Program-made: the position numbers and the translations under genes
Notes under the pieces: model-generated
Databases searched by the model: none
What the model saw: only the letters and a program-made list of their open reading frames with translations
Told to the model about the DNA's origin: nothing
Assembly (NCBI RefSeq): GCF_028583545.1
Contig: NZ_CP087106.1
Coordinates: forward strand, 4,770,501 to 4,834,500
Reading direction: 5' to 3'
DNA: 64,000 nt
Source: Methylobacterium sp. NMS14P
GTDB lineage: Bacteria; Pseudomonadota; Alphaproteobacteria; Rhizobiales; Beijerinckiaceae
Shown here: one piece after another, positions 17,945 to 32,283 of the stretch
Position numbering within the stretch: the first letter of the stretch is position 1
How the letters are laid out: each line of letters begins with the position of its first letter

Positions 17945-18387
17945 GATCTTCACTAAGCCGTTGCGATAACTCGATAATCGCAGGTTCAATCCGATCCGAC
18001 AAGGCTTGTTCCGGCGTCCCGCCCGCCGGACCGACCTGTATTCGGCCGTCCGCCCGGCTGTGCGCTTGGCCGACCGAGACCCGGCCGGGTGCCGCGTCCC
18101 CGCGACCGGACGCCTCGCGGGTCGGGGCCGGACCGGCGCCGCGCGGAGCGCGCAGCATTCGCATCTCCGGTTCGGGGGCATCGGGAGATCGATCGTGTCG
18201 CCGAACGACGATCTTTGGAATTTCGGGGCGGGCCGGGCTGATCTAAATCTGACGCGAGACAATCCTCCGCGTGAGACGGCGCCTCTCGACCTGATGGATA
18301 GTGTCCGCATGCCCTCGGATGCGGAGCGAACCATCGCGGCCAGACCGCCGGACGTGCCCCCGCCCATCCCCGCCAGAGTCCCGCCCG
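17945..18387. other. 443-bp divergent intergenic region upstream of metQ
   Basis: No gene is supported. The region is less GC-rich near 17950-17985 and 18195-18265, as expected for promoters. An imperfect dyad GCGAT..ATCGC lies near 17965-17985. I looked for a SAM-II-type riboswitch core upstream of metQ and did not see one. The control elements of the sulfur operon probably lie here. Confidence 0.4.
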
Positions 18388-19188
18388 ATGAAGTTCCTGC
18401 GTCTCCTCGCCGTCGCGGCGCTCAGCCTCGGCGCCCTGCCGGCCGGGGCGGAGACCCTCCGGGTCGGCGTCGTGCCCGGCGCCTACGGCGATGCCGTCAC
18501 GGTGGCGGCCCGGGAGGCCAAGGCCGAGGGCCTCGACGTGAAGGTCGTCGAGTTCAGCGACTGGACGACGCCCAACGTCGCCCTCGATGCCGGCGACATC
18601 GACCTGAACTTCTTCCAGCACCGCCCCTTCATGGAGAACGCCGCCAAGCAGAAGGGCTACGCGTTCGACATCGTCGGGCTCGGGATCCTGTCCAATATCG
18701 GCCTGTACTCCCTGAAGCATAAGAGCTTCGACCAGATCCCGGCGGGCGGCACGGTGGCGATCGCCAACGACCCGGTGAATCAGGGCCGCGGCCTGCTGCT
18801 CCTCCAGAAGGCCGGGCTGATCAAGCTGAAGGACGGTGTCGGCTTCCTCGGCACCCTCGACGACATCGTCGAGAACCCGAAGAAACTGCGCTTCACCGAG
18901 GTCGAGGGGCCGCAGCTCGCGCGGATCACCGGCGACGTCGACCTCGCCCTGGGCTACCCGCACTTCATCGTGGCGGCCGGCAGTTTCGACCCGACCAGCG
19001 GATTGATCTATTCCGGTATCGAGGACCGGCGCTTCGCCGTGAGCTTCGTCACCAAGGCCGCCCGCAAGGAGGACCCCGTGATCCGGAAATTCGTGACGCT
19101 CTTCCAGAACTCGGAGGCCGTGAAACAGCAGATCCGCAAATCCTTCGCCAACAGCGACAAGCTGTACCTGCTGGCGTGGCAGAACTGA
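18388..19188 (+). CDS. metQ: MetQ-like periplasmic substrate-binding protein
   Basis: This 266-residue NlpA/MetQ-family binding protein has a signal peptide ending PAGA before [10 protein letters not shown]. There is no lipobox cysteine, so it should be soluble in the periplasm, unlike the E. coli lipoprotein. Typical family segments include [13 protein letters not shown] and [15 protein letters not shown]. The stop overlaps the metN start (TGATG). MetQ proteins usually bind methionine, but the downstream flavin enzymes suggest a different organosulfur ligand. Confidence 0.88.
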
Positions 19189-20354
19189 TGGTCGGCCTGA
19201 TCTTCGACAGCCTGCGCGATCCGGGCACGCCGGCCGCGGCCGGGCGAACGAGCCCGGGCGCCGCGACCGCTGCCCGGACCCCGGCCGCCGCGCCCGGCTG
19301 GGAGGCCGGCCGGGAGACCGGAACGGTGCGGTTCGAGTCCGTCTCGAAGACCTACCGCTCGGCCGCCGGGTCGGTGCAGGCGCTCGACCGGGTGGACCTC
19401 GCGATCCCCGCCGGCGCGATCTTCGGCATCATCGGCCGCTCGGGGGCGGGCAAGTCGAGCCTCCTGCGCACGGTCAACCGGCTGGAGGCGCCGAGTTCGG
19501 GCCGGGTCCTGGTCGACGGCGCGCCGATCGACGCCCTCGGCACCGACGGGCTCGTGGCCCTGCGCCGGCGCATCGGCATGATCTTCCAGCACTTCAACCT
19601 GCTGGCGGCCAAGACAGTCCGGCAGAACGTGGCGCTGCCGCTGACGGTCGCGGGGGTCCCCCGGCGCGAGATCGGCCCGCGGGTCGCGGAGGCCCTGCGC
19701 CTCGTCGGCCTGGAGGACAAGGCCGACACCTACCCGTCGCGGCTCTCCGGCGGCCAGAAGCAGCGGGTCGGCATCGCCCGGGCGCTCGTGAGCGATCCGG
19801 AGATCCTGCTCTGCGACGAGGCGACCTCCGCCCTCGACCCGGAGACGACGCTGGCGATCCTCGACCTGCTGCGCGACATCAACCGGCGGCTCGGGATCAC
19901 CATCATCCTGATCACCCACGAGATGAGCGTGATCCGCGAGATCTGCAGCGACGTGGTGGTGCTGGAGGGCGGCCGGGTCGTCGAGACCGGGCCGGTCTGG
20001 CGCGTCTTCGGGGCGCCCGAGCACCCGACCACCCGGGCGCTGCTCGAACCCCTGACCCGCGGCCTGCCGCCGGATCTGGCGGCCCGGCTGCAGCCGCTGC
20101 CCGCGCCGGGCGGCTGGGCGATCCTGCGGATCACCTGCTCGGGCCGGGCCGCGCCCGACCTCTCGGGCCTCGCGGGTGCCGGGGCGCCGGTGCGGCTGCT
20201 CCAGGCGGGCATCGAGCGGATCCAGGGCCACGCGGTCGGCCGGATGCTCGTGGCCGTCCCGGCCGAGGATCCGGGCGCGGAGGCGCGGCTGCGGGCGCTC
20301 GGCGGCGACGTGGAGCGGGTCGGCTACGTCCCCGCCGACGCGGCGGCGGGGTGA
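19188..20354 (+). CDS. metN: MetN-like ABC transporter ATPase
   Basis: This 388-residue ATPase has Walker [10 protein letters not shown]-loop FQHFNLL, signature LSGGQKQR, Walker [13 protein letters not shown] and switch ITHEMS. A C-terminal NIL-type ligand-sensing domain (about 300-385) is characteristic of MetN. I chose the ATG at 19188, which overlaps the metQ stop, over the GTG at 19176. About 40 poorly conserved Ala/Pro-rich residues precede the ATPase core. The NIL domain suggests trans-inhibition by the intracellular substrate. Confidence 0.9.
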
Positions 20355-20358
20355 GGCG

Positions 20359-20472
20359 ATGCGGGACCGCGCTCTGCCCGATACCCCGCCCGATACTCCG
20401 CCCGATACTCCGCCCGACACTCCGACCGCCCGAGCCACCGAACCTGGAGCCCCGCCATGTCACAGCAGATGA
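20359..20472 (+). CDS. Possible 37-residue PDTP-repeat peptide between metN and metI
   Basis: An ATG 4 bp after the metN stop opens a short frame with four PDTP repeats. It ends 16 nt inside metI, so its translation could couple metN to metI. A weak GAGG lies just upstream. The repeats come from the 12-bp tandem array at 20377-20424. I know of no homologue, and it may simply be expanded spacer. Confidence 0.3.
   Translation: MRDRALPDTPPDTPPDTPPDTPTARATEPGAPPCHSR
20377..20424 (+). repeat. 12-bp tandem repeat, four units, between metN and metI
   Basis: Units of CCCGATACTCCG lie at 20377-20388 (one change), 20389-20400, 20401-20412 and 20413-20424 (one change). The array sits in the 102-bp spacer ahead of metI. 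Confidence 0.92.
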
Positions 20473-21110
20473 TCGAACGCCTCTGGCAGGCCCTCCTCGA
20501 CACCGCGCTCATGGTCGGGGTCTCGGCCGGGATCGCCGTGCTCGCCGGCATTCCCCTGGCGCTGTTCCTCGTCACCTCCGGGCCCGGCGGCATCTTCGCG
20601 GCGCCGACGGCCAACCGGGTGGTCGGGACCGTGGTCAACGGCTTCCGGGCCGTGCCCTTCATCGTGCTGCTGGTGGCGCTGATCCCGTTCACCCGGCTGG
20701 TGGCCGGCACCACGATCGGCGTCTGGGCGGCGATCGTGCCGCTCTCGGTGAGCGCGACCCCGTTCTTCGCCCGGATCGCCGAGGTCTCGCTGCGGGAGGT
20801 GGATGCGGGCCTGATCGAGGCCGCCCAGTCCATCGGCTGCCGGCGCCGGCACATCCTCGCCCACGTGCTCCTGCCCGAGGCGCTGCCGGGCATCGTGGCC
20901 GGCTTCACCATCACGGTGGTGGCGATGATCGGCGCCTCCGCGATGGCCGGCGCGGTGGGCGCGGGCGGGCTCGGGGACGTCGCCATCCGGTACGGCTACC
21001 AGCGCTTCGACACCACCGTGATGGTGGTGGTGATCGCGATCCTGATCGCCCTCGTGTGCGCGGTCCAGTTCGCGGGCGACACCGCGGTGCGGCGGCTCCG
21101 GGCCCGCTGA
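20457..21110 (+). CDS. metI: MetI-like ABC transporter permease
   Basis: This 217-residue inner-membrane permease has five or six helices and the coupling (EAA) loop EAAQSIGCRRRHILAHVLLPEALPGI, listed here only by its position at about residues 121-146. Length and sequence fit MetI. A GGAG lies upstream of the ATG. With MetQ and MetN it completes an importer. A 208-bp spacer holding an interspersed palindromic repeat separates it from the next gene. Confidence 0.9.
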   Translation: MSQQMIERLWQALLDTALMVGVSAGIAVLAGIPLALFLVTSGPGGIFAAPTANRVVGTVVNGFRAVPFIVLLVALIPFTRLVAGTTIGVWAAIVPLSVSATPFFARIAEVSLREVDAGLIEAAQSIGCRRRHILAHVLLPEALPGIVAGFTITVVAMIGASAMAGAVGAGGLGDVAIRYGYQRFDTTVMVVVIAILIALVCAVQFAGDTAVRRLRAR

Positions 21111-21194
21111 GCGAAACCGTCCGATCTGGGCGATCCGACCGGGAGCCTGCAGCCATGGATCGTCCCCGGTCGACGACCTCGACAGCGCCGTCCG

Positions 21195-21273
21195 CGCGCG
21201 CGGAGCGAAGCGATCCAGGCAGCGCCGCGTCTTCCAGCCGCGCGTGGGCCCCGGGTCGCTTCGCAGCGCTCGC
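21195..21273 (-). repeat. Interspersed palindromic repeat, copy A
   Basis: On the minus strand this about 79-bp element starts GCGAGCGCTGCGAAGCGACC and ends CTGGATCGCTTCGCTCCGCG, so its ends are inverted repeats. It matches the element at 43571-43645. Both lie in intergenic spacers. It resembles the REP-like repeats I recall being common in Methylobacterium genomes. Confidence 0.6.
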
Positions 21274-21318
21274 GACGACGGTGGGACGTCCCAACCGAAG
21301 CGGTCAACCGGACACCGT

Positions 21319-22563
21319 ATGAGCCTGCACCTGGACGATCCCGTCACCGACCCGGCCGAGGACCGGCTCCCGCCGCCGCCCGCGGCGGCGCACCGGATCC
21401 GCTCGGACGCCGAGGCGATCGCGGCCGCGCGGGCCGTGGCCCGGATCTTCGCGGCGGGCGCGGCCGAGCGCGACCGGGACCGGCGCCTGCCCTGGGCGGA
21501 GATCGCGGCCTTCACGGAGAGCGGGCTCGGCGGCATCACGGTGCCGCGCGCCCACGGCGGCGCCGGGGTCTCGCACGCGACGCTCGCGGAGGTCTTCGCG
21601 ATCCTCGCCGCCGCCGACGGCTCGGCGGCGCAGATCCCCCAGAACCAGTTCGGCGTCCTGGCGCTGGTCGCGGCCGCCGCCAGCCCCGCCCAGCAGGCGC
21701 GGATCTACCGCGACGTGCTCGCCGGCCACCGGATCGGCAATGCCGGCCCCGCCCGCAACGGCAAGGCCATCACCGGCGTGGACACGCGGCTGGCCGTCGG
21801 GCCGGGCGGCCCGCGGCTCAGCGGCACGCGCTTCTACTCCACGGGCGCGCTCTTCGCCCACTGGATCCCGACGCGCGCGGTCGGCCCCGACGGCGGGCCG
21901 CTCCTGGTCTTCGTGCGCCGGGACGCCCCCGGCGTGCGGGTGGTGGACGACTGGCAGGGCTTCGGCCAGCGCACCACGGCGAGCGGCAGCGTGATCTTCG
22001 CGGAGGCCCCGGTCGAGGCGGAGCTGACGATCGACCTCGCGCCCCTGGCCGGGCGCCCGGGCCTGTTCGGACCGGTCTCGCAGCTGATCCACGCGGCGAT
22101 CGACGCGGGGCTCGCCCGGGGCGCGGTCGCCGCCGCCCTCGACTTCCTGCGCACCCGGACCCGGCCCTATCCCTTCACCGCCGAGACCGTCGCGGAGGAT
22201 CCCCACATCCTCGGCGAGGTCGGGCGGCTCACCGTCGACCTGCACGCCGCCGAGGAGGTCCTGGCCCGGGCCGGCCGGGCGCTGGACCGGATCGCCGCGA
22301 CCCCCGTCACCGCCCAGAGCGCGGCCGAGGCCTCGGTGGCGGTGGCGCAGGCCAAGATCCTCACCACCGAGATCGCCCTGGAGGCCTCCGAGCGGCTGCT
22401 CGAGCTCGCCGGCGCCTCGGCGACCCGCGACGGGTACAACCTCGGCCGGTACTGGCGCGACGCCCGGGTCCACACCCTGCACGACCCCGTGCGGTGGAAG
22501 TACCACCTCCTCGGCAACCACGCCCTGAACGGCGTGCTGCCCGCCCGGCACCAGTGGAACTGA
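21319..22563 (+). CDS. SfnB-family sulfur-acquisition flavoenzyme (acyl-CoA dehydrogenase fold)
   Basis: This 414-residue protein has the acyl-CoA dehydrogenase fold and the SfnB-family signature DGSAAQIPQNQF. It also has the C-terminal HTLHDPVRWKYHLLGNHALN segment, which it shares with its downstream paralogue. Family members act in use of dimethyl sulfone and other organosulfur compounds, probably as FMNH2-dependent monooxygenases. It starts at the ATG at 21319; the next gene follows after 10 bp. The ligand signature differs slightly from the paralogue (QNQF against QNHF), so the two may have different substrates. Confidence 0.83.
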   Translation: MSLHLDDPVTDPAEDRLPPPPAAAHRIRSDAEAIAAARAVARIFAAGAAERDRDRRLPWAEIAAFTESGLGGITVPRAHGGAGVSHATLAEVFAILAAADGSAAQIPQNQFGVLALVAAAASPAQQARIYRDVLAGHRIGNAGPARNGKAITGVDTRLAVGPGGPRLSGTRFYSTGALFAHWIPTRAVGPDGGPLLVFVRRDAPGVRVVDDWQGFGQRTTASGSVIFAEAPVEAELTIDLAPLAGRPGLFGPVSQLIHAAIDAGLARGAVAAALDFLRTRTRPYPFTAETVAEDPHILGEVGRLTVDLHAAEEVLARAGRALDRIAATPVTAQSAAEASVAVAQAKILTTEIALEASERLLELAGASATRDGYNLGRYWRDARVHTLHDPVRWKYHLLGNHALNGVLPARHQWN

Positions 22564-22573
22564 GGATCGGGCG

Positions 22574-23812
22574 ATGCCGCTCCAGCCGCACGAGACCGCC
22601 TTCACACAGGCGCCCGCGCCGCCGCGCCCGGTGCCGGTCCTGCCCGACGCCGCCACCGCGCTGGCCGTCGCCGACCGGCTGGCGGACGCCTTCGCCGAGG
22701 CCGCCGTCGAGCGCGACCGCGCGCGGCGCCTGCCGGTCGCCGAGATCGCGCGCTTCACCGAATCCGGCCTCTGGGCGATCACGGTGCCGGAGGAATACGG
22801 CGGCCCCGGCCTCGACAGCGCCACGGTCGCCCAGGTGATCGCCCGGATCTCCGCGGCGGACGGGTCGCTCGGCCAGATCCCGCAGAACCATTTCTACGCC
22901 CTGGAGGTGCTCCGCAACGGCGGCACCGAGGCCCAGAAGCGCGCCCTCTACGGCCGCGTTCTGGCGGGCGAGCGCTTCGGCAACGCGCTCGCCGAGATCG
23001 GCGCGCGGGACCACACCCGCCGCACGCGGCTCGTGCGCGATCCGGCGGGCTGGTATGTCGAGGGCCGCAAATACTACTGCACCGGCTCGCTCTACGCGCA
23101 CCGCATCCCCACCCTGGCCAACGCCGAGGAGGACGGTCGGGAAGTGGCCTACCTCGTCTTCATCCCCCGGGACGCGCCGGGCGTGACCCTGGTCGACGAC
23201 TGGGACGGGTTCGGGCAGCGGGTCACCGGCTCGGGCTCGGTCCTGTTCGAGGGCGTCGCCGTCGAGCCCGACTGGGTGGTGCCGTTCCAGGCCTCGCTGG
23301 AGCGGCCCACCGCGATCGGCCCCTTCGCGCAGATCCTGCACGCCGGGATCGATCTCGGCATCGGCGCGGGCGCCTTCGCGGCGACTTTGCCCTTCGTGCG
23401 GGACCGCGCCCGGCCGTGGATCGATGCCGGGGTCGCACGGGCCAGCGAGGATCCCCTGACCCTCCACGCGCTGGGCGACGTCCAGGTGCGCCTCGCGGCG
23501 GCCGACGCCCTGCTGGCGCGGGCCGGCCGCTTCGTGGACGCCGCGCAGGAAGCCCCCGACGCCGACAGCGTCGCGGCCGCCTCCGTGGCGGTGGCGGAGG
23601 CCCGGGCGGCGAGCCACCGGGCCGGCCTGCTCGCGGCCAACAAGCTCGTCGAGCTCGGCGGCACCTCCGCCACCGACCGGGCCGAGGCGCTGGACCGCTA
23701 CTGGCGCGACGTCCGCACCCACACCCTGCACGATCCGGTGCGCTGGAAGTACCACTGGATCGGCGCCTACCACCTCGACGGCCGGCAGCCGCCCCGGCAC
23801 GGAGCGCTCTGA
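22574..23812 (+). CDS. SfnB-family sulfur-acquisition flavoenzyme, second copy
   Basis: This 412-residue paralogue of the preceding gene shows DGSLGQIPQNHF and the same HTLHDPVRWKYH C-terminus. Both genes keep the flavin-enzyme fold without an obvious acyl-CoA catalytic Glu that I can assign. The stop TGA shares one base with the next ATG, so the gene is translationally coupled to the NtaA/DmoA-family monooxygenase. Together they look like successive oxygenation steps on a methylated sulfur compound. Confidence 0.85.
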   Translation: MPLQPHETAFTQAPAPPRPVPVLPDAATALAVADRLADAFAEAAVERDRARRLPVAEIARFTESGLWAITVPEEYGGPGLDSATVAQVIARISAADGSLGQIPQNHFYALEVLRNGGTEAQKRALYGRVLAGERFGNALAEIGARDHTRRTRLVRDPAGWYVEGRKYYCTGSLYAHRIPTLANAEEDGREVAYLVFIPRDAPGVTLVDDWDGFGQRVTGSGSVLFEGVAVEPDWVVPFQASLERPTAIGPFAQILHAGIDLGIGAGAFAATLPFVRDRARPWIDAGVARASEDPLTLHALGDVQVRLAAADALLARAGRFVDAAQEAPDADSVAAASVAVAEARAASHRAGLLAANKLVELGGTSATDRAEALDRYWRDVRTHTLHDPVRWKYHWIGAYHLDGRQPPRHGAL

Positions 23813-25185
23813 TGGCCCTCGGGAAGAAGCAGATCCTGCTGAACGCCTTCAACATGACCTGCGTGGGCCACATCAACCACGGGCTCTGGACCCACCCGCG
23901 CGACCGCTCGGCCGAGTACAACACGCTGTCCTACTGGACCGAGCAGGCGAAGCTCCTGGAGCGCGGCCTGTTCGACGGCCTGTTCATCGCCGACATCATC
24001 GGCGTCTACGACATCTACGGCGGCGGCATCGACGTCACCGCCCGGGAGGCAGTGCAGCTCCCGGTCAACGACCCGACCGTGATGATCTCCGCCATGGCGG
24101 CGGTGACCGAGCATCTCGGCTTCGGGGTGACGATCAACGTCCACCAGGAGGCGCCCTACACCTTCGCCCGGCGCCTCTCGACCCTCGACCACCTGACGGG
24201 CGGCCGGATCGGCTGGAACATCGTCACCGGCTACCTCGACAGCGCCCACCGCGCCCAGAGCGGCGGCACGTTGCCGGCTCATGACCGGCGCTACGACTAC
24301 GCCGACGAGTACCTGGAGGTGCTCTACCGGCTCTGGGAGGGCAGCTGGGACGACGCGGCCGTGCGCCGCGACCGGGCGGCCCGGGTGTTCAGCGATCCCG
24401 CCCACATCCGCAAGGTCGCCCACCGGGGCGAGTTCTTCTCGGTCGAGGGCTACCACCTGTCGGAGCCGTCGCGCCAGCGCACGCCGGTGCTCTATCAGGC
24501 GGGCGCCTCGGGCCGCGGCCGCGCCTTCGCGGGCCGCCACGCCGAGTGCGTGTTCATCTCCGCCCGCGACCCGGCGACCGCCCGCGAATCCGTCCGCGCC
24601 ATCCGGGCCGAGGCGGTCGCGGCCGGCCGGCATCCCGACGACGTGAAGGTGTTCGTCGGCCTCGCGATCATCCCCGGACGGACCCGGGCGGAGGCCGAGG
24701 CGAAGCGGGACGAGTACCTGTCCTACGCGAGCCCGGAGGCGGGGCTCGCGCATTTCTCCGCCTCCACGGGGATCGACTTCGCCCGCTACGGCCTCGACGA
24801 GCCGATCCCCTACGCGCCGGGCAACGCCATCCAGTCGGCCACCGCGGCGGCGGCCAAGCGCGGCCTGACGAAGCGCGACCTCCTGGCCGAGCTGCAGCTC
24901 GGCAGCCGCTACGCGGTGCTCACCGGCGACGCCGCGACGATCGCCGACGAACTCCAGGCCTGGATCACGGAGGGCGAGGTCGACGGCTTCAATCTCAGCC
25001 GGATCGTCGTGCCGGAGAGCTTCTCGGATTTCATCGACATCGTGATCCCGGAGCTGCAGGACCGCGGCCTCTACAAGACCGCCTACGCCGAGGGCGCGCT
25101 GCGGGCGAAGCTGTTCGGCGCGGGCGACCGGCTGCCCGCCCGCCACCCGGCCGGGGCCTACCGCGGCGCGGCTCAGCGAGCCTGA
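23812..25185 (+). CDS. NtaA/DmoA-family FMN-dependent monooxygenase
   Basis: This 457-residue member of the luciferase-like flavin monooxygenases has the family segments LNAFNMTCVGH, DLTGGRIGWNIVTGYLDSA-like text at about residues 128-145, and VLYQAGASGRGR. The family includes dimethylsulfide, dibenzothiophene-sulfone and nitrilotriacetate monooxygenases. It needs FMNH2 from a separate reductase, which is not in this operon. Its position after two SfnB-family genes and a MetQNI importer points to C-S bond cleavage. The exact substrate is not readable from sequence. It ends convergently with the channel gene, overlapping by 13 bp. Confidence 0.87.
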   Translation: MALGKKQILLNAFNMTCVGHINHGLWTHPRDRSAEYNTLSYWTEQAKLLERGLFDGLFIADIIGVYDIYGGGIDVTAREAVQLPVNDPTVMISAMAAVTEHLGFGVTINVHQEAPYTFARRLSTLDHLTGGRIGWNIVTGYLDSAHRAQSGGTLPAHDRRYDYADEYLEVLYRLWEGSWDDAAVRRDRAARVFSDPAHIRKVAHRGEFFSVEGYHLSEPSRQRTPVLYQAGASGRGRAFAGRHAECVFISARDPATARESVRAIRAEAVAAGRHPDDVKVFVGLAIIPGRTRAEAEAKRDEYLSYASPEAGLAHFSASTGIDFARYGLDEPIPYAPGNAIQSATAAAAKRGLTKRDLLAELQLGSRYAVLTGDAATIADELQAWITEGEVDGFNLSRIVVPESFSDFIDIVIPELQDRGLYKTAYAEGALRAKLFGAGDRLPARHPAGAYRGAAQRA

Positions 25186-26363
25186 GCCTCGCCGCTCTCG
25201 GAGCCGAACCAGCGGCCGTAGATCTCGTCGTAGCGGCCGTCCTCCCGCAGCCCGAGGAGGGCCTGGTTGACGCGCTTGCGCCGGGGATCGTTGGCCGCGA
25301 ACAGGATGCCGTAGGATTGCCGGTTGAAGGCCGTCCCGACCAGCCGCAGGGCCTCGTGGCCCGGCCGGGTCGCGTAGTAGCCCAGCGCGGGGGCATCGTA
25401 GACCACCGCCGCGACCGTGCCGGCCTGGAGCGCCGCGCAGGCCTCCTCCAGGGTCGCGAAACCCACCGGCGTGGCGAAATGGTCCGCCAGGTAGGCGACC
25501 GAGGTGGTGTTGGCGACCGTGCCCACCCGCTTGCCCGGCAGGTCCTGCGGGCCGTTGATCGCGCCGCGCAGGCGCTCCACGGTCGCCGTGCTGGTCAGGC
25601 CCGCGGTGAACCACGCCACCAGGGCGATGCAGGTGAACAGCCAGAGCACCGTGACGGCCCGCGCCAGCGGGCTGCGCGGCATCTCCTCCGCCTGGGCGGC
25701 GAGGCTGCTCAGGGCCCACCAAACGACGTGGGCGAAGCCGCGCGCCGGTCCCGAGCGCGCCGCCATGCCGCCGGGGTGGCGCCGCTCGAGCCACCAGACC
25801 AGGGCCGCCACCGCCAGGATCAGGGCGGCGAGTCCCAGGAGGACCTGCAGGAAGGCGGTGTCGCTCAGGAGCGCCCGGAGGGCCCGCGCGGTGGCGGAGC
25901 CGGTCGCGTCCGGCTCGGCCCGGACGGCGATGCGCAGGCCGGTCTCCAGCATCGTGACGGAGAAGTCGAAACGCCGCTCGCGCTCCGCGGTGATCGACAC
26001 CGCCGCGACGGCGAGGTCCGCGCGCCCGTCCGAGACCGCCGCGAACAGCGCCGGCAGGTCGTCGACGCGCACGTAGGCCGTCCGGACGCCGAGCTCCCGC
26101 GCGACGGCGTTCCAGAGATCGATGCTGAACCCGCGCAGCCGGCCGTCCTCGTCCATGACCAGGGGCGGCACCGGGTGCGTCGCGACCCGCCACGTCTCGG
26201 GCTCGGTCGTGCGGAGCGCGGGCGCCGCCTCCCGGGTCTCGGCCCGGACAGGCTCCGCGGCGAGCGGCGCGGCGGCCGCGAAACACAGGGAGAGGAACAG
26301 GACGAGGGACAGGATCCCCGCGGGCGCGCCGGCACGCCGCCGGCCGGCCGACCGGCGCGGCAC
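25173..26363 (-). CDS. Ionotropic glutamate receptor-like ligand-gated ion channel
   Basis: This 396-residue protein has a signal peptide (about 1-36). A family-3 binding lobe S1 (about 55-150) is followed by M1 (about 171-191), a pore loop (about 211-228), M3 (about 235-257) and lobe S2 (about 265-390). This is the iGluR layout without M4. VSITAERERRFDFS aligns with the agonist-binding region of animal receptors, Arg128 matching the carboxylate-binding Arg. VVYDAPALG places Asp323 at the amino-group ligand. The M3 segment WFTAGLTSTATVERL resembles SYTANLAAFLTVER. The pore lacks TVGYG. I chose the GTG at 26363, 1 nt after the upstream AraC stop. Confidence 0.8.
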   Translation of the reverse strand: MPRRSAGRRRAGAPAGILSLVLFLSLCFAAAAPLAAEPVRAETREAAPALRTTEPETWRVATHPVPPLVMDEDGRLRGFSIDLWNAVARELGVRTAYVRVDDLPALFAAVSDGRADLAVAAVSITAERERRFDFSVTMLETGLRIAVRAEPDATGSATARALRALLSDTAFLQVLLGLAALILAVAALVWWLERRHPGGMAARSGPARGFAHVVWWALSSLAAQAEEMPRSPLARAVTVLWLFTCIALVAWFTAGLTSTATVERLRGAINGPQDLPGKRVGTVANTTSVAYLADHFATPVGFATLEEACAALQAGTVAAVVYDAPALGYYATRPGHEALRLVGTAFNRQSYGILFAANDPRRKRVNQALLGLREDGRYDEIYGRWFGSESGEAQAR

Positions 26364-26364
26364 G

Positions 26365-27420
26365 TCAGAGGCTCTCGATCCAGTTGCGCAGGACGGCGCC
26401 GGGCGCGGGTTCGGGGCCGGTCTCCAGGCGCTGGGACGCGTCGCTCGGGATGAAGCCGAACCGGCGCTTGAACGCCCGCCGGAAGGTCCGCTCGTCCGAG
26501 AAGCCGACCGCGAAGGCGACCTGCGAGATGCGCAGGGGTCTGGGGGCATCGTCGCGCACGAGCATCCGCATCGCCGCCATGAGGCGGCGGTCGCGAATAT
26601 ACGCCACGATGCCGTTGGGGGCGAACAGCCGGTACAGGGTCGAGCGCGACAGGCCGAGCCGCGTCGCGATCAGGGCCGGCGTCAGCTTCGGGTTGCCGAG
26701 CTCCGCCTCGACGAGGCGGCGCACCCGGATCCGGATGTCCTGGTGCTGGGAGGGCCGCCCCTCCTCCTGCCCGCGCAGCCAGCTGGCGCAGAGCTGGGTG
26801 ATCGCCGCCGAGGCCGCCAGGGCCTCGCGGCGGTCGAGGAGGTCGCCGCAGGCGACGACGTTGGCGACGAAATTGTGGACCAGCCGCCCGAACGGGTCGC
26901 CGTCGTGGTCGAGGGGGCGCCCGTGCAGGGCGTCGGGGTGGCAGCCCTGCTTCTCCAGCAGGGCGCGGGGGATCACGACGTTCGTGGCGTCGACGGCAGC
27001 CGCCACGATGCGCACGGGCTGGGCGAGGTCGAAGACGATGCACTGCACCTCGTTCACCGGGCCCGCACCCTGATCGGTCTCCACCAGGCTCTGCCCCCGC
27101 CGGTAGAACTGCAGCAGGATGTGGTCGAGGCCCTGCTGGCCGATCATCTCCCGCGTCCGCACGAGGGTGTGGGCCGGCGCCACCACGTCGCCGACCAGCA
27201 GGTCGCCGAGATGGTAGCTGCGCATCGCGATCGGGACGGTGAGGTCGGTCTCCGGGCGGAAGCTCACGTCGAAGATGGGCGCGAGATGGTCCTGCCACGC
27301 CCGGCCGAGCGCCGCGGGATCGCCGGGCGGCTCGAACCGCAGGCAGGCGACCTCGCCGGCCGGAGCCTCGCCCCCGGCCGGCGCCGCGTCCGGGTCCCGG
27401 TCTCTCTCCTCGGAAGACAT
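26365..27420 (-). CDS. AraC-family transcriptional regulator
   Basis: This 351-residue protein has an N-terminal AraC-binding-like domain (about 20-200) and a C-terminal double helix-turn-helix. The latter includes LIATRLGLSRSTLYRLF and ISQVAFAVGFSDERTFRRAFKRRFG. It is cytoplasmic. The ATG at 27420 is chosen. The stop TGA is followed after one base by the GTG start of the channel gene, so regulator and channel are an operon. The inducer is unknown; a shared ligand with the channel is only a guess. Confidence 0.88.
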   Translation of the reverse strand: MSSEERDRDPDAAPAGGEAPAGEVACLRFEPPGDPAALGRAWQDHLAPIFDVSFRPETDLTVPIAMRSYHLGDLLVGDVVAPAHTLVRTREMIGQQGLDHILLQFYRRGQSLVETDQGAGPVNEVQCIVFDLAQPVRIVAAAVDATNVVIPRALLEKQGCHPDALHGRPLDHDGDPFGRLVHNFVANVVACGDLLDRREALAASAAITQLCASWLRGQEEGRPSQHQDIRIRVRRLVEAELGNPKLTPALIATRLGLSRSTLYRLFAPNGIVAYIRDRRLMAAMRMLVRDDAPRPLRISQVAFAVGFSDERTFRRAFKRRFGFIPSDASQRLETGPEPAPGAVLRNWIESL

Positions 27421-27799
27421 ACGTAGAGCCTGACACCTGCTGTTAGCGCGACCGATGAAGAACGAGGGCCTGCCCCAAGGTGACGCGTGGCAACGCGGTC
27501 CGGTCGTCCCGCACGTTAGCCGCGCCCACCCGGACAGTCTTCCTGTCTCCCGCCGGCCCGGACGGCTGTACACTGTCGTTTGCCGGGGCGACGTGCGATT
27601 CGACGCGGGCGCCGCCGGATCGGGCCGCCACCGGCGCAACGTCCGATCATCGTGACTTACGAGCCGGCGGTGTGGTTCCTTCCGTCCCAGAAAGGGGGAT
27701 CCCCGTTTCAGGACGTCGCGCGCGGCGCCGGGTGTGGCCGCGATGTGATAGTCCGTTAAACCCGCATTTCCTAACCCCCGTGCAAAGCTTGCGGCAGGC
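27421..27799. other. 379-bp divergent intergenic region
   Basis: No gene is supported. It should hold the promoters of the AraC-channel operon (leftward) and the autotransporter (rightward). GC falls just before the autotransporter ATG (about 27745-27790). I could not identify a convincing operator. Confidence 0.4.
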
Positions 27800-30700
27800 A
27801 TGACGGGGGTCAGTCCAGTGGTCCGACAGTATAGCGATGTCGAGCGTGTGACCGGATCCTGTGATCCGAGCCGGGGCGCGCGCGCCGAAACGCGGCGCTG
27901 CGGCGCCGTGCGGCTGGGATTGCTGGTCGGCAGCTCGCTCGCAACCCTCGCGCTGGCCCTGGGACCTGTCGCGGCGCAGACCGTGCCGGCGCGCTCGCCC
28001 TCGACGGTCGATGCCTTCGGGGTACCGTTGACGGCGGCGCAGTTCGACACGCCCGAATACAGGCTCGATTGGGGCTTGGCGGCCATCAACGCCGCAACCG
28101 CCTATGCTCGCGGCTTTACTGGAAACGGCGTGTTGGTGGCCGTTCTTGATAGTGGCGTTGATCCGACACATCCAGAATTCAACGCAAGACGTGGTCAAAT
28201 ATCACCACTTTCCCGCAACTTTGTTTCGTATTTGGATCCGACGATCAATCCGTCCGAGCTTTTTGATATGGACCCCCGCGGGCATGGCACTCATGTTTCT
28301 GGCACAGTCGCAGCTGCTCGCAACAGCGTAGGCATGATGGGAGTAGCGTACGACAGCACTATTCTGTCACTCGTGTCCTCGCTCGGCAGCGCCTACACCT
28401 TCAGGGAAGTGCCCGTCGCCATTGATTATGCGGCAAATAGTGGCGCCCGCGTTATGAATGGAAGTTACGGCGTCAATTTTTGGCAATTTCCTCGAGCACT
28501 CTCTCGTCAAGAATATTGGTATGATGAGGAGCGGGTTCAATACGAGGCAATCAAGAGAGCAATCAGCAGAGATGTTCTTTTCATTTTTGCTGCGGGAAAT
28601 GACCGATCATTACAGCCGGCTACAGCACAAAGTCCAAGCGACTCTGCTCTTTTTCCGTATATAAAACCGAGCAATGCGAACAGCGGAGTATATCAATTTT
28701 ATGATAGAAACCCTAATGATTCGAACAGATCCGTTGCCCAGCAGCAGAATTCTGCGGACTTCTCAGATGTATCAGGATATATTGTCGCAGTAGTTGCTGT
28801 CGATAAAAACCGTTCGATCGCTAGTTTCAGCAATCTGTGCGGCGTTGCGGCGGCTTGGTGTATCGCCGCCCCAGGTGAAGGTATCTATTCGACCAAAGCC
28901 GGTGGCGGTTACCAGAGCCTGAGCGGCACATCGATGGCCTCGCCGCACGTGGCCGGTGCCGCAGCTGTCCTGCGTCAGGCGTTCCCGTTCCTGACGGCGC
29001 CGCAGATCGCCCAGACCATGTTCACCACCGCCACCCATCTCGGTGACGGTCCGGCCAACGCCCCGAACGCCACCTTCGGCTGGGGCCTGCTCAACCTCGG
29101 CAAGGCCATCGACGGCCCGGGCCAGTTCACCTCCACCTGGACGGTCAACACCACCTACAACGACCAGGCCTATTACGGCCGCTTCGCCAACGACATCTCG
29201 GGGCCCGGCGGTCTGATCAAGGTCGGTCTCGGCACCCTCGAACTCGCCGGCTCCAACACCTATGCCGGCGGCACCGCCGTCTACGGCGGCACCCTGGCCG
29301 TCTCCCGCGACGCCAATCTCGGCGCCGCCGGCACCGGCCTGACCCTCGGCGGCGGCACCCTCGAGGTCCTGGCCGACGGCTTCGCCACCGCCCGCCCGAT
29401 CACGCTGGCCGGCCCCGGCACCCTGCAGATCGACCTCGGCACCGCCACCTTCGCGGGGCCGATCGCCGACGGCAGCCAGCCGGGCGTGCTGGTCAAGACC
29501 GGCCCCGGCACCGCCGTGCTCTCGGCCGCCAACACGTTCACAGGCGGCGCCCTGGTCGGCACCGGCACCCTGGCCCTGACCGCCACCGGCAGCCTCACCG
29601 CGCCCGTTCTCGTCGGCTCGGCGGCGAGCTTCCTCAATGCCGGCCTCGTCTCCGGCAACGTCGGCAACTTCGGCGTCCTCGCCAACAGCGGCACCATCAC
29701 GGGCGGCCTCGCCAATGCCGGTCTGGCCCTCAACACCGGCACCGTCGGCGGCGGCGCTGCCAACACCGGCAGCCTGGTCAACGCCGGCACCCTCGCGGGC
29801 GGACTGACCAACGCCGGCACCGCCCTCAACACCGGCACCATCGCCGGCGGCGCGACCAACAGCGGCGTCCTGAGCAACGCCGGCGCCATCGGCGGCGTCG
29901 TCAACACCGGCACGCTTTCCACCAGCGGCACGGTCGGCGGCGGCCTGACCAATGCCGGCACCGTGCTCGCCAGCGGCGGCCGCATCGACGGCGCCATCGC
30001 CAACAATGCCGGCCTGCTCGCCATCGCTGGATCCGTCGCCAGCGCCGGCACCGTCGCCAACGCCGCCGGCGCGACGCTCGCCGTCACGGGCGGCGGCAGC
30101 TACAGCCTCGCCGGCCCCCTGGCCAATGCCGGCCTCGTCGCGGTCGCCCAGAGCGCCAGCCTCACCGCCTCCGGCGGCCTCAGCAATGCCGGCCTCGTCG
30201 TCAGCGACGGCACCCTCACCGCCGACCTGACCAACACTGGCGTCGCCCGCCTGTCCGGTCAGTACAACGGCACGCTGACCAATGCCGGCCTGCTGCAGGT
30301 CACCGGCCCGCTCGCCGGGCTCACCGGCCTGACCAACACCGGCGCCCTCGACCTCGGCGGCACCGCCGTCGCGCTCACCGACCTCGCCGGCTCCGCCTCC
30401 GCCGTCCTGGGCAACGGCGCCCTCACGGTCGCGGGCGCGGCCGCCTCCACCTACGCCGGCGCCATCCTGGAGACCGCGAGCCCGACCAGCCTGACCAAGG
30501 CCGGCCCCGGCACGCTCACGCTCACCGGCCTCGGCCGCTTCTCCGGCCCGACCACCGTCCAGGCCGGCACGCTCTCGCTCAACGGCCTCTGGACCTCGCC
30601 GGTCACCGTCGCGGCCGCCGGCACCCTGCGCGGCATCGGCACCGTCGCGGCCCCGGTCACGGTCGCCGGCGCCCTGCGGCCGGGCAACTCCCCCGGCACG

Positions 30701-32283
30701 CTCACCGTGCTCGGCCCGGTGGTGTTCAACCCCGGCAGCAGCCTCGGCCTCGACATCGACGGACCGGGCACCGGCACCGGCGCGGGCAGCTACGCCCGCC
30801 TCCTGGCGCTCGGCCCGACCGGCACGGTCGCGGCGGGCGGCACCCTGGTGCCGGAGCTGCGCGGCATCACCGGCAACGCGGGCAACGGCTTCACCCCGCG
30901 CTCGGCCAGCGCTTCGGCGTGCTCACCGCGCAGGCCGGGCTGTCGGGCTCGTTCAGCGGGCTCGCCCAGCCGGCGGCGGGCCTGCCGGCCGGCACGCGCC
31001 TCGACGCGCTCTACGCCGCCACCGGCCTCGACCTCGTGGTCACGCCCGCTGCCTACGGCAGCCTCGCCGGGCTCGGCCTCGCCCAGACCGGCAACGGCCG
31101 GGCCGTGGGCGCGGCCCTCGACCTCGCCCGCCCGGATGCCGGCACGCGGCCGGACGCGGCGCGGGCGCGGGTATTCGACCCGCTCTACGCGGCCAACCCG
31201 GCGACCCTGCCGGGCGGCCTGGCGAGCCTGTCGGGCCAGAGCTACGGCGACGCGGTGATGACCGACCTCGCCGCGCGCCGGCTGCTGGCCGACACGATCG
31301 ACCGGCACCAGCGCGGGCTGGGCGGGGGCGCGGGCGCGTTCAGCGCGGGCGATCCGGGCCCGGGCCCGAACCGCACGGCGCTGCAGGTGCGCGGCGGCGC
31401 CGGGACGGCGGAGCCGCCGCTGGCGGTGGGCGAGGGCCGGGTCTGGGCCGACGCGCTGTACGGGTTCGGCGCGCGCGCCGGCGACCGGGCGGCCACGGGG
31501 GCCGGGTTCGACGCGGGCGGGCTGCTGATGGGCGTCGACCGGCAGGTCGGGGCGGACACGCAGGTGGGCGGGGCGTTCAGCTACCTGCGCGCGGGCGGCA
31601 CGTCCCGGGGCGCGGGGCTGGGCCGGTTCACCACCGACAGCTACGGCGGCACGCTGTACGCGAGCGCGCGGCTCGGCGCGGTGGTGCTGCGCGGCACGGC
31701 GGGGGTATCGTACGCCGACGGTCGGGTTGACCGGACGGTGGCGCTGGGCACGGCGGTGTCGCAGGCGAGCGGGCTGTCGTCGGGCTGGAACGGCGGGGCG
31801 TCGGGCTTTGCCGGCTACGCGGTGGCGGTGGGTCTTCCGGCGGGCGTTCCGGTCGAGGTCGTGCCGGAGGTGGGCTTCAGCTACGACCGGCTGACGCGGG
31901 GCCGGGTGTCCGAGCGGGGCGGTCTGGTGGGTCAGGGCTTCGGCGGGCAGGGGTTCGCGGTGGCCGACCTCGACGCGGCGCGCAGCCTGGTCGGCGGGCG
32001 GGTGACGAGCGTGGCGCTGGGGGGCATCCCGGAGCTGCGTCTGGAGGGGCGGGCGTACTGGGCGCACGAGCTGGCCGACACGGCGGCCCTGATCCGGTCC
32101 AACCTGTTCGGGGCTCCGTTCACGACCCGCACGAGCGCGCTGGGCCGGAACGGCGCAGTCCTGGGCGTGAGCCTGACGGGTGCGGTCGCGGAGGGCGTGC
32201 AGCTGTCGGTGGGCTACACGGGCGAGCTGCGCCCGGGCGCCACCGCGCAGGTCGTCACCGCCGGCCTCCGGGCCGCGTGGTGA
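27800..32283 (+). pseudogene. S8-protease autotransporter, frameshifted before the beta-barrel
   Basis: The frame from 27800 encodes an extended signal peptide (to about residue 60) and a subtilisin-type S8 domain: Asp117 in VAVLDSGVD, His162 in GHGTHVSG, Ser378 in SGTSMASPHVAG. A Gly/Ala/Asn-rich beta-helix passenger follows, with GGLIKVGLGTLELAGSNTYAG-type repeats near residues 472-492. Around 30896-30899 one base is missing and the frame moves: the C-terminal part from LGQRFGVLTAQ to the autotransporter barrel ending GLRAAW at 32283 is in another frame. As read, the passenger lacks its translocator. A sequencing error or a -1 slip would restore about 1,490 residues. The catalytic domain DNA (about 28100-28890) is much lower in GC. 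Confidence 0.82.

Follow-up and report, generated by a model that had tools for sequence, protein, structure and literature searches.

The 64,000-nucleotide stretch of the Methylobacterium sp. NMS14P genome (6.88 Mb in three contigs) analysed here, hereafter the window, encodes on its minus strand a protein of the ionotropic glutamate receptor (iGluR) family that probably acts as a ligand-gated cation channel and whose pore loop lacks the TVGYG-type K+ selectivity filter. The open reading frame (ORF), its strand and its coordinates (Table 1) agree with a first-pass annotation of the DNA, and the two stretches to which that annotation had drawn attention were located at residues 215-231 (WWALSSLAAQAEEMPRS) and 251-265 (WFTAGLTSTATVERL) of the protein.

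Table 1. The candidate channel gene, its parts and neighbouring genes; positions are those of the window
Feature	Position	Strand	Details
iGluR-family candidate channel gene	25173..26363	minus	GTG start 26363-26361, TGA stop ending 25173; 396 aa
Signal peptide region, residues 1-38 (hydrophobic helix 16-30)	26250..26363	minus	Hydropathy; helix in the model, with low pLDDT there
S1 half of ligand-binding domain, residues 57-152	25908..26195	minus	SBP_bac_3, Lig_chan-Glu_bd; aligns with 2PYY
Arg128	25980..25982	minus	R kept in 98 of 99 short-filter rows
M1 helix, residues 169-193	25785..25859	minus	AlphaFold2 model, hydropathy
Pore helix (P), residues 206-221	25701..25748	minus	AlphaFold2 models
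Short selectivity-filter loop AAQAEEMPRS, residues 222-231	25671..25700	minus	Alignments; Q224 and acid at 226 conserved
M3 helix with FTAGLTSTATVERL gate motif, residues 232-267	25563..25670	minus	AlphaFold2, residue conservation
S2 half of ligand-binding domain, residues 268-389	25197..25562	minus	Pfam, PDB alignments including 2PYY
Asp323	25395..25397	minus	D kept in 91 of 99 short-filter rows
AraC-type regulator (AraC_binding_2 + HTH_18)	26365..27420	minus	Stop 1 nt before the GTG of the channel gene
ABC importer	18301-21110	plus	ORFs 18301-19188, 19176-20354 and 20457-21110; about 4 kb from the channel gene

Three Pfam profiles matched the protein above their cut-offs, namely SBP_bac_3, which was the top match (94.1 bits versus 26.4), PF00060 Lig_chan (59.3 bits versus 30.8) and Lig_chan-Glu_bd (31.6 bits versus 30), and all 15 NCBIfam matches, mostly to amino-acid binding proteins, fell below theirs. 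The best match in the PDB was 2PYY (179.8 bits), described as an "ionotropic glutamate receptor bacterial homologue", and full-length plant GLR3.4 (78.6 bits) and GluN2B (64.2 bits) each gave a single alignment spanning the membrane part. The membrane piece alone (135 aa) retrieved 178 PDB sequences at E values up to 10; all 60 of these 178 matches that were listed are iGluR chains or iGluR chimeras, with E values of 9.5e-9 for plant GLR3.4 and 1.5e-5 for GluA2. Since three profiles exceeded their cut-offs and the membrane part by itself recovers iGluRs, the resemblance is not a chance one. An ordinary ATP-binding cassette (ABC) solute-binding protein has an uninterrupted binding domain without a pore, which is not the organization found here, and a plain binding protein, whether or not fused to unrelated helices, is ruled out because the membrane part matches iGluRs both by sequence and by model.

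The S1-M1-P-M3-S2 layout of iGluRs, proposed at first pass, is found by Pfam, in the PDB matches and in the AlphaFold2 monomer. The fold and topology of the monomer are predicted with confidence (pLDDT, the predicted local distance difference test score, of 88), and the model adds a pre-M1 helix at residues 156-167 to the signal, M1, pore and M3 helices of Table 1. In blocks of ten residues, pLDDT is 91-97 over residues 171-250 and 87 and 76 at the end of M3 (251-270). When modelled alone, the membrane part aligns with the pores of AMPA receptors and NaK (VIA-align). Behind its signal helix the 396-aa protein has two membrane helices, with neither an amino-terminal domain nor M4; neither this layout nor the trees described below support its description as close to the eukaryotic state.

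Compared with TVGYGD, the filter loop is shorter by two residues, and it contains neither GYG nor GFG, so that the absence of a TVGYG-type K+ selectivity filter, recognized at first pass, is confirmed in our alignments. Among 99 short-filter rows (that of the window included), Q224 is kept in 95 and an acid (D or E) at position 226 in 74, and in M3 A254 is kept in all 99 and T261 in 98. The position of the loop acid is close to that of the "+4" acid, in a region where the alignment is uncertain by one residue; the available text of one paper reports the "+4" acid also for plant glutamate receptor-like proteins (GLRs) and, as aspartate, for GluR0 (PMC12226733). The agonist-site residues Arg128 and Asp323 are conserved as claimed (Table 1), and they are expected to bind the alpha-carboxylate and the alpha-amino group of the ligand, respectively (Ger et al. 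2010, PMC2950845). Since S2 reads NTT where most relatives read GST, the ligand may differ from glutamate. The first-pass annotation had also taken the likeness of M3 to SYTANLAAF as an animal-type mark. In the 17 TVGYG rows, T253 is kept in 15, A254 in 14, T257 in 11 and T261 in all 17; because T253 and T261 are also kept in these receptors, the likeness is family-wide and the M3 motif cannot serve as an animal trait.

A homologue search that scored 8000 candidates returned 116 homologues, of which 109 were aligned after seven (P0100 and P0112-P0117) had been dropped as fragments, fusions or proteins without Lig_chan. TVGYG is absent from 99 of the 109: the loop is short in 90 and of full length in nine, and the remaining ten carry TVGYG or TVGFG. 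Likewise, the 80 loci kept from 129 confirmed in the genome collection comprise 73 short, five long non-K+ and two K+-type filters; the queries in these searches were the window protein and its near relatives, and the proportions of filter types consequently favour the short type. Short-filter loci are labelled Methylobacterium, Bradyrhizobium, Hyphomicrobiales, Asticcacaulis, Paraburkholderia, and Nostoc and other cyanobacteria, with further ones labelled Armatimonadetes, Chloroflexi, Deltaproteobacteria and Chlamydiae, among others, many of them metagenome-assembled genomes. For example, a protein of Nostoc sp. UCD121 (L036) whose S2 is identical to that of 2PYY over 122 aa has the filter WWAAATLATQADEMPKG, with the short loop LATQADEMPKG. 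Because this nearest full-length relative is short, the crystallised Nostoc (2PYY) type belongs to the short-filter kind. Ger et al. (2010, PMC2950845) had divided 22 prokaryotic sequences of iGluR topology into 12 of K+ type (Group 1) and 10 others (Group 2). The notion that known prokaryotic receptors universally carry TVGYG is refuted by Group 2 and by the short filter of the Nostoc protein, which also rule out that such a pore is unprecedented in bacteria.

Further filter types occur within the same family. Full-length loops with GGCEN or GGCDN at the VGYGD position were seen in L072, L076, L079 and P0095, and GEYGD or GEHGD loops in L088, P0086, P0093 and P0108. P0121 is a 720-aa relative of the TVGYG receptors with an extra PF04069 binding domain according to precomputed domains. 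In an alphaproteobacterium (G268, contig C64; locus L103, 3942-9931), four iGluR-like ORFs are clustered; their pore loops (e.g., WWSAGIAALNEAGDVSTKS) are unusual and the arginine region of their S1 is divergent. The ORF that interrupts this cluster is presumably ThyX-like.

For phylogenetic analysis, 321 rows were gathered and thinned at 68% identity to 133, after exclusion of short, fused or partial sequences (P0100, P0105, P0112-P0117, P0135, P0136 and P0225) and of loci whose match is interrupted by a stop codon (L022, L031, L039, L054, L066, L070 and L087). Removal of two eukaryote fragments and of the filter columns left a quick tree of 131 rows, in which 98 of the 99 bacterial short rows (the exception being P0134) form one set together with the long non-K+ row L077, with a support of 100 in the Shimodaira-Hasegawa-like approximate likelihood ratio test (SH-aLRT). 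The window protein pairs with P0012 (support 98) and groups with the Nostoc 2PYY-type rows (SH-aLRT 100, and 96/94 in the binding-domain tree described below). In the sample studied, the short-filter type is essentially one widespread clade that includes the crystallised Nostoc type.

The direction of change was examined in a tree of the binding domain, the pore being excluded, that was built from 17 K+ rows, 12 of 13 long rows, 26 hand-picked short rows and two solute-binding-protein outgroup rows. Ten K+ rows form the sister group of the remaining rows, and L077 is nested in one set with the short rows (96/94). With three filter states, parsimony reconstructed a K+ filter at the root of the ingroup in 831 of 1000 bootstrap trees; with two states, the root was K+ alone in 523, ambiguous in 446 and non-K+ in 31 of 1000, and the best tree was ambiguous. 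Irreversible change requires six losses under a K+ root and six gains under a non-K+ root, and the 131-row tree without eukaryotes requires five changes between K+ and non-K+ and seven among three states. The polarity therefore depends in part on the argument that repeated gain of an exact TVGYG is improbable. The tree rooted on solute-binding proteins thus points, without proof, to a TVGYG ancestor of the short-filter type. Ger et al. (PMC2950845) considered two options, and such an ancestor would favour their first, in which Group 2 arose from Group 1.

The position of the eukaryotic receptors is compatible with more than one view. GLR3.4 and GluN2B fall outside the short set in free trees, on very long branches; a tree of 30 of the 99 short rows (picked by hand), 17 K+ rows and 11 of 13 long rows in which the two were held with the short rows has a log-likelihood 27 higher than that of the free quick search, with a P value of 0.838 in the approximately unbiased test. 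Because of this result, kinship of the eukaryotic receptors with the short-filter clade and its opposite are both compatible with the data. According to a 2012 review that includes its own tree, plant receptors have no closer relationship to animal receptors than to bacterial receptors (PMC3483616).

The nearest named homologues of the window protein are from Methylobacterium (86% for M. sp. P5_C11, 84% for M. sp. XJLW and 84% for M. fujisawaense). The channel gene was found in seven of 111 Methylobacterium genomes at an E value of 1e-30, and PF00060 is present in eight of 289 alphaproteobacterial genomes, above the cut-off in six. The ratio of nonsynonymous to synonymous substitution rates (dN/dS) is 0.15-0.29 in all ten pairs of five Methylobacterium copies, compared from GFSIDLW to the stop, and in the membrane part of the same copies dS is 0.097-0.488 and dN 0.005-0.112; the gene, its membrane part included, is under purifying selection.

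Directly before the channel gene lies the AraC-type regulator gene, and the two are adjacent in all seven Methylobacterium genomes that carry the channel. The 1-nt gap was seen in four of the five Methylobacterium copies examined (the junction in G010 was not inspected), and the regulator and the channel probably share a transcript. Regulators with AraC_binding_2 also lie directly upstream in two Bradyrhizobium loci (L043, 4816-5784; L047, 4621-5769), a neighbourhood that is only suggestive because AraC genes are common. Beyond the regulator, at 27797-32280, lies a gene for a subtilase autotransporter whose match to an M. fujisawaense protein is split over two frames; the reading frame is broken near 30889-30898, by either a natural frameshift or a sequence error. 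On the other side, plus-strand genes converge on the channel gene (18301-25185) and encode, in addition to the importer, a luciferase-like monooxygenase, an acyl-CoA dehydrogenase and a second acyl-CoA-dehydrogenase-like ORF. This cluster resembles what we take to be a set for the uptake and breakdown of sulfur compounds. The importer comprises an ATPase resembling NIL-domain types and a permease, its M. fujisawaense counterparts contain ABC_tran and NIL, and BPD_transp_1, and ORF 18301-19188 is probably the importer's own putative binding protein.

We consider it likely that the window protein is a Group-2-type prokaryotic iGluR, a putative amino-acid-gated cation channel that is not K+-selective; a ligand-gated cation channel, as suggested at first pass, is the best reading of its putative function. 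Four subunits would be embedded in the inner membrane and expose S1S2 to the periplasm, where an amino acid would close the clamshell over Arg128 and Asp323 and so pull on M3, and this pull would open the pore-loop channel. Cations would then pass without strong K+ selectivity, given a ring of glutamine and acid (Q224, E226/E227) and no TVGYG carbonyl ladder, and the receptor would probably serve in sensing or in an ionic and osmotic response. The analysis establishes the family, topology, predicted monomer fold, purifying selection, clade and gene layout; we infer the tetrameric state, ion conduction and its selectivity, the ligand, co-transcription with the regulator and the role in the cell. 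It seems unlikely that the protein is instead a non-conducting ligand sensor, in which the short loop forms no conducting filter and which signals by ligand-driven movement or only binds. The filter loops of the short clade (TQAD, AQAE, GQQP, GSAD, NQVM) do vary more than a fixed selectivity would suggest, and no recording from a Group 2 (short-filter) receptor was found in the literature searched, most subscription journals being outside its coverage; nevertheless, the conservation of Q224, the acid at 226, A254 and T261, the purifying selection on the membrane part and the confidently predicted pore helix all argue against a mere sensor.

A K+-preferring channel, in which an unusual filter retains K+ selectivity wholly or partly, would agree with the kinship of the protein to the TVGYG receptors, its possible descent from them and the acid after the filter that is common to these receptors. 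We think this improbable. The usual carbonyl ladder of K+ channels is formed by a TVGYG-type filter and is impossible in a loop that is two residues short and has no GYG or GFG. Finally, database naming would make the protein an amino-acid-binding protein that is anchored in the membrane and supplies an ABC permease: solute-binding protein family 3 heads the Pfam matches, the NCBIfam matches, although below cut-off, are GlnH-like, and homologue records are named "transporter substrate-binding domain-containing protein". The importer, encoded on the opposite strand at a distance of about 4 kb, fits this naming as well and weighs slightly against our preferred channel assignment. However, M1-P-M3 divides the binding domain into S1 and S2 and is matched by the membrane parts of iGluRs, the importer appears to be equipped with a binding protein of its own and faces the opposite way, and the acyl-CoA dehydrogenase and luciferase-like monooxygenase genes lie between the two, all of which leaves a role in ABC transport very improbable.

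Receptors of this kind have been known in print since 2010 and have hardly been studied, and the window protein is a channel candidate rather than a new kind. What our analysis adds is, in the sample studied, essentially one widespread short-filter clade that includes the crystallised Nostoc type, and an AraC gene directly before the channel gene in Methylobacterium; an ancestor with TVGYG is possible for the short-filter type. With a small receptor that has two helices and no TVGYG, the loss of K+ selectivity in iGluRs would become open to direct testing. As a tentative proposal, which we hold to be possible and rather less likely than its opposite, the short-filter receptors would be ligand-gated non-selective (perhaps Na+/Ca2+) channels with a single origin from a TVGYG K+ receptor whose filter lost about two residues; either they gave rise to the eukaryotic pore, or bacteria went through the same change independently. 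If this were true, they would give bacteria depolarising responses to amino acids.

With the Group 2 receptors (Ger et al. 2010, PMC2950845), the window protein shares the S1-M1-P-M3-S2 layout, the absence of TVGYG and the agonist arginine and aspartate; our trees covered Nostoc 2PYY-type rows. Cyanobacteria and proteobacteria are named there for Groups 1 and 2 together. The Nostoc 2PYY type is in the same clade and has a short filter, whereas the window protein is on a separate branch (with P0012), reads AAQAEEMPRS instead of ATQADEMPKG and has AraC directly upstream. We take the Group 2 accessions to include Nostoc/Anabaena and alphaproteobacteria. Synechocystis GluR0 (Group 1, K+-selective) has a K+-type filter, which the window protein lacks; passages of two reviews (PMC11479355, PMC12551409) treat K+-selective GluR0 as the prokaryotic receptor, and a third paper describes its K+ channel activity, inverted topology and volume regulation and used a growth test of GluR0 in K+-uptake-deficient E. 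coli (JBC 2026, PMC13099474). Solute-binding proteins of family 3 (GlnH, ArgT) have the same ligand-binding fold but are not split by M1-P-M3. Compared with the eukaryotic receptors, the window protein is without amino-terminal domain and M4, at about 20% identity, but it resembles animal AMPA, kainate and NMDA receptors and plant GLRs in the membrane fold and a TA..T..TV-like M3, and its loop has a glutamine and an acid as does that of AMPA receptors.
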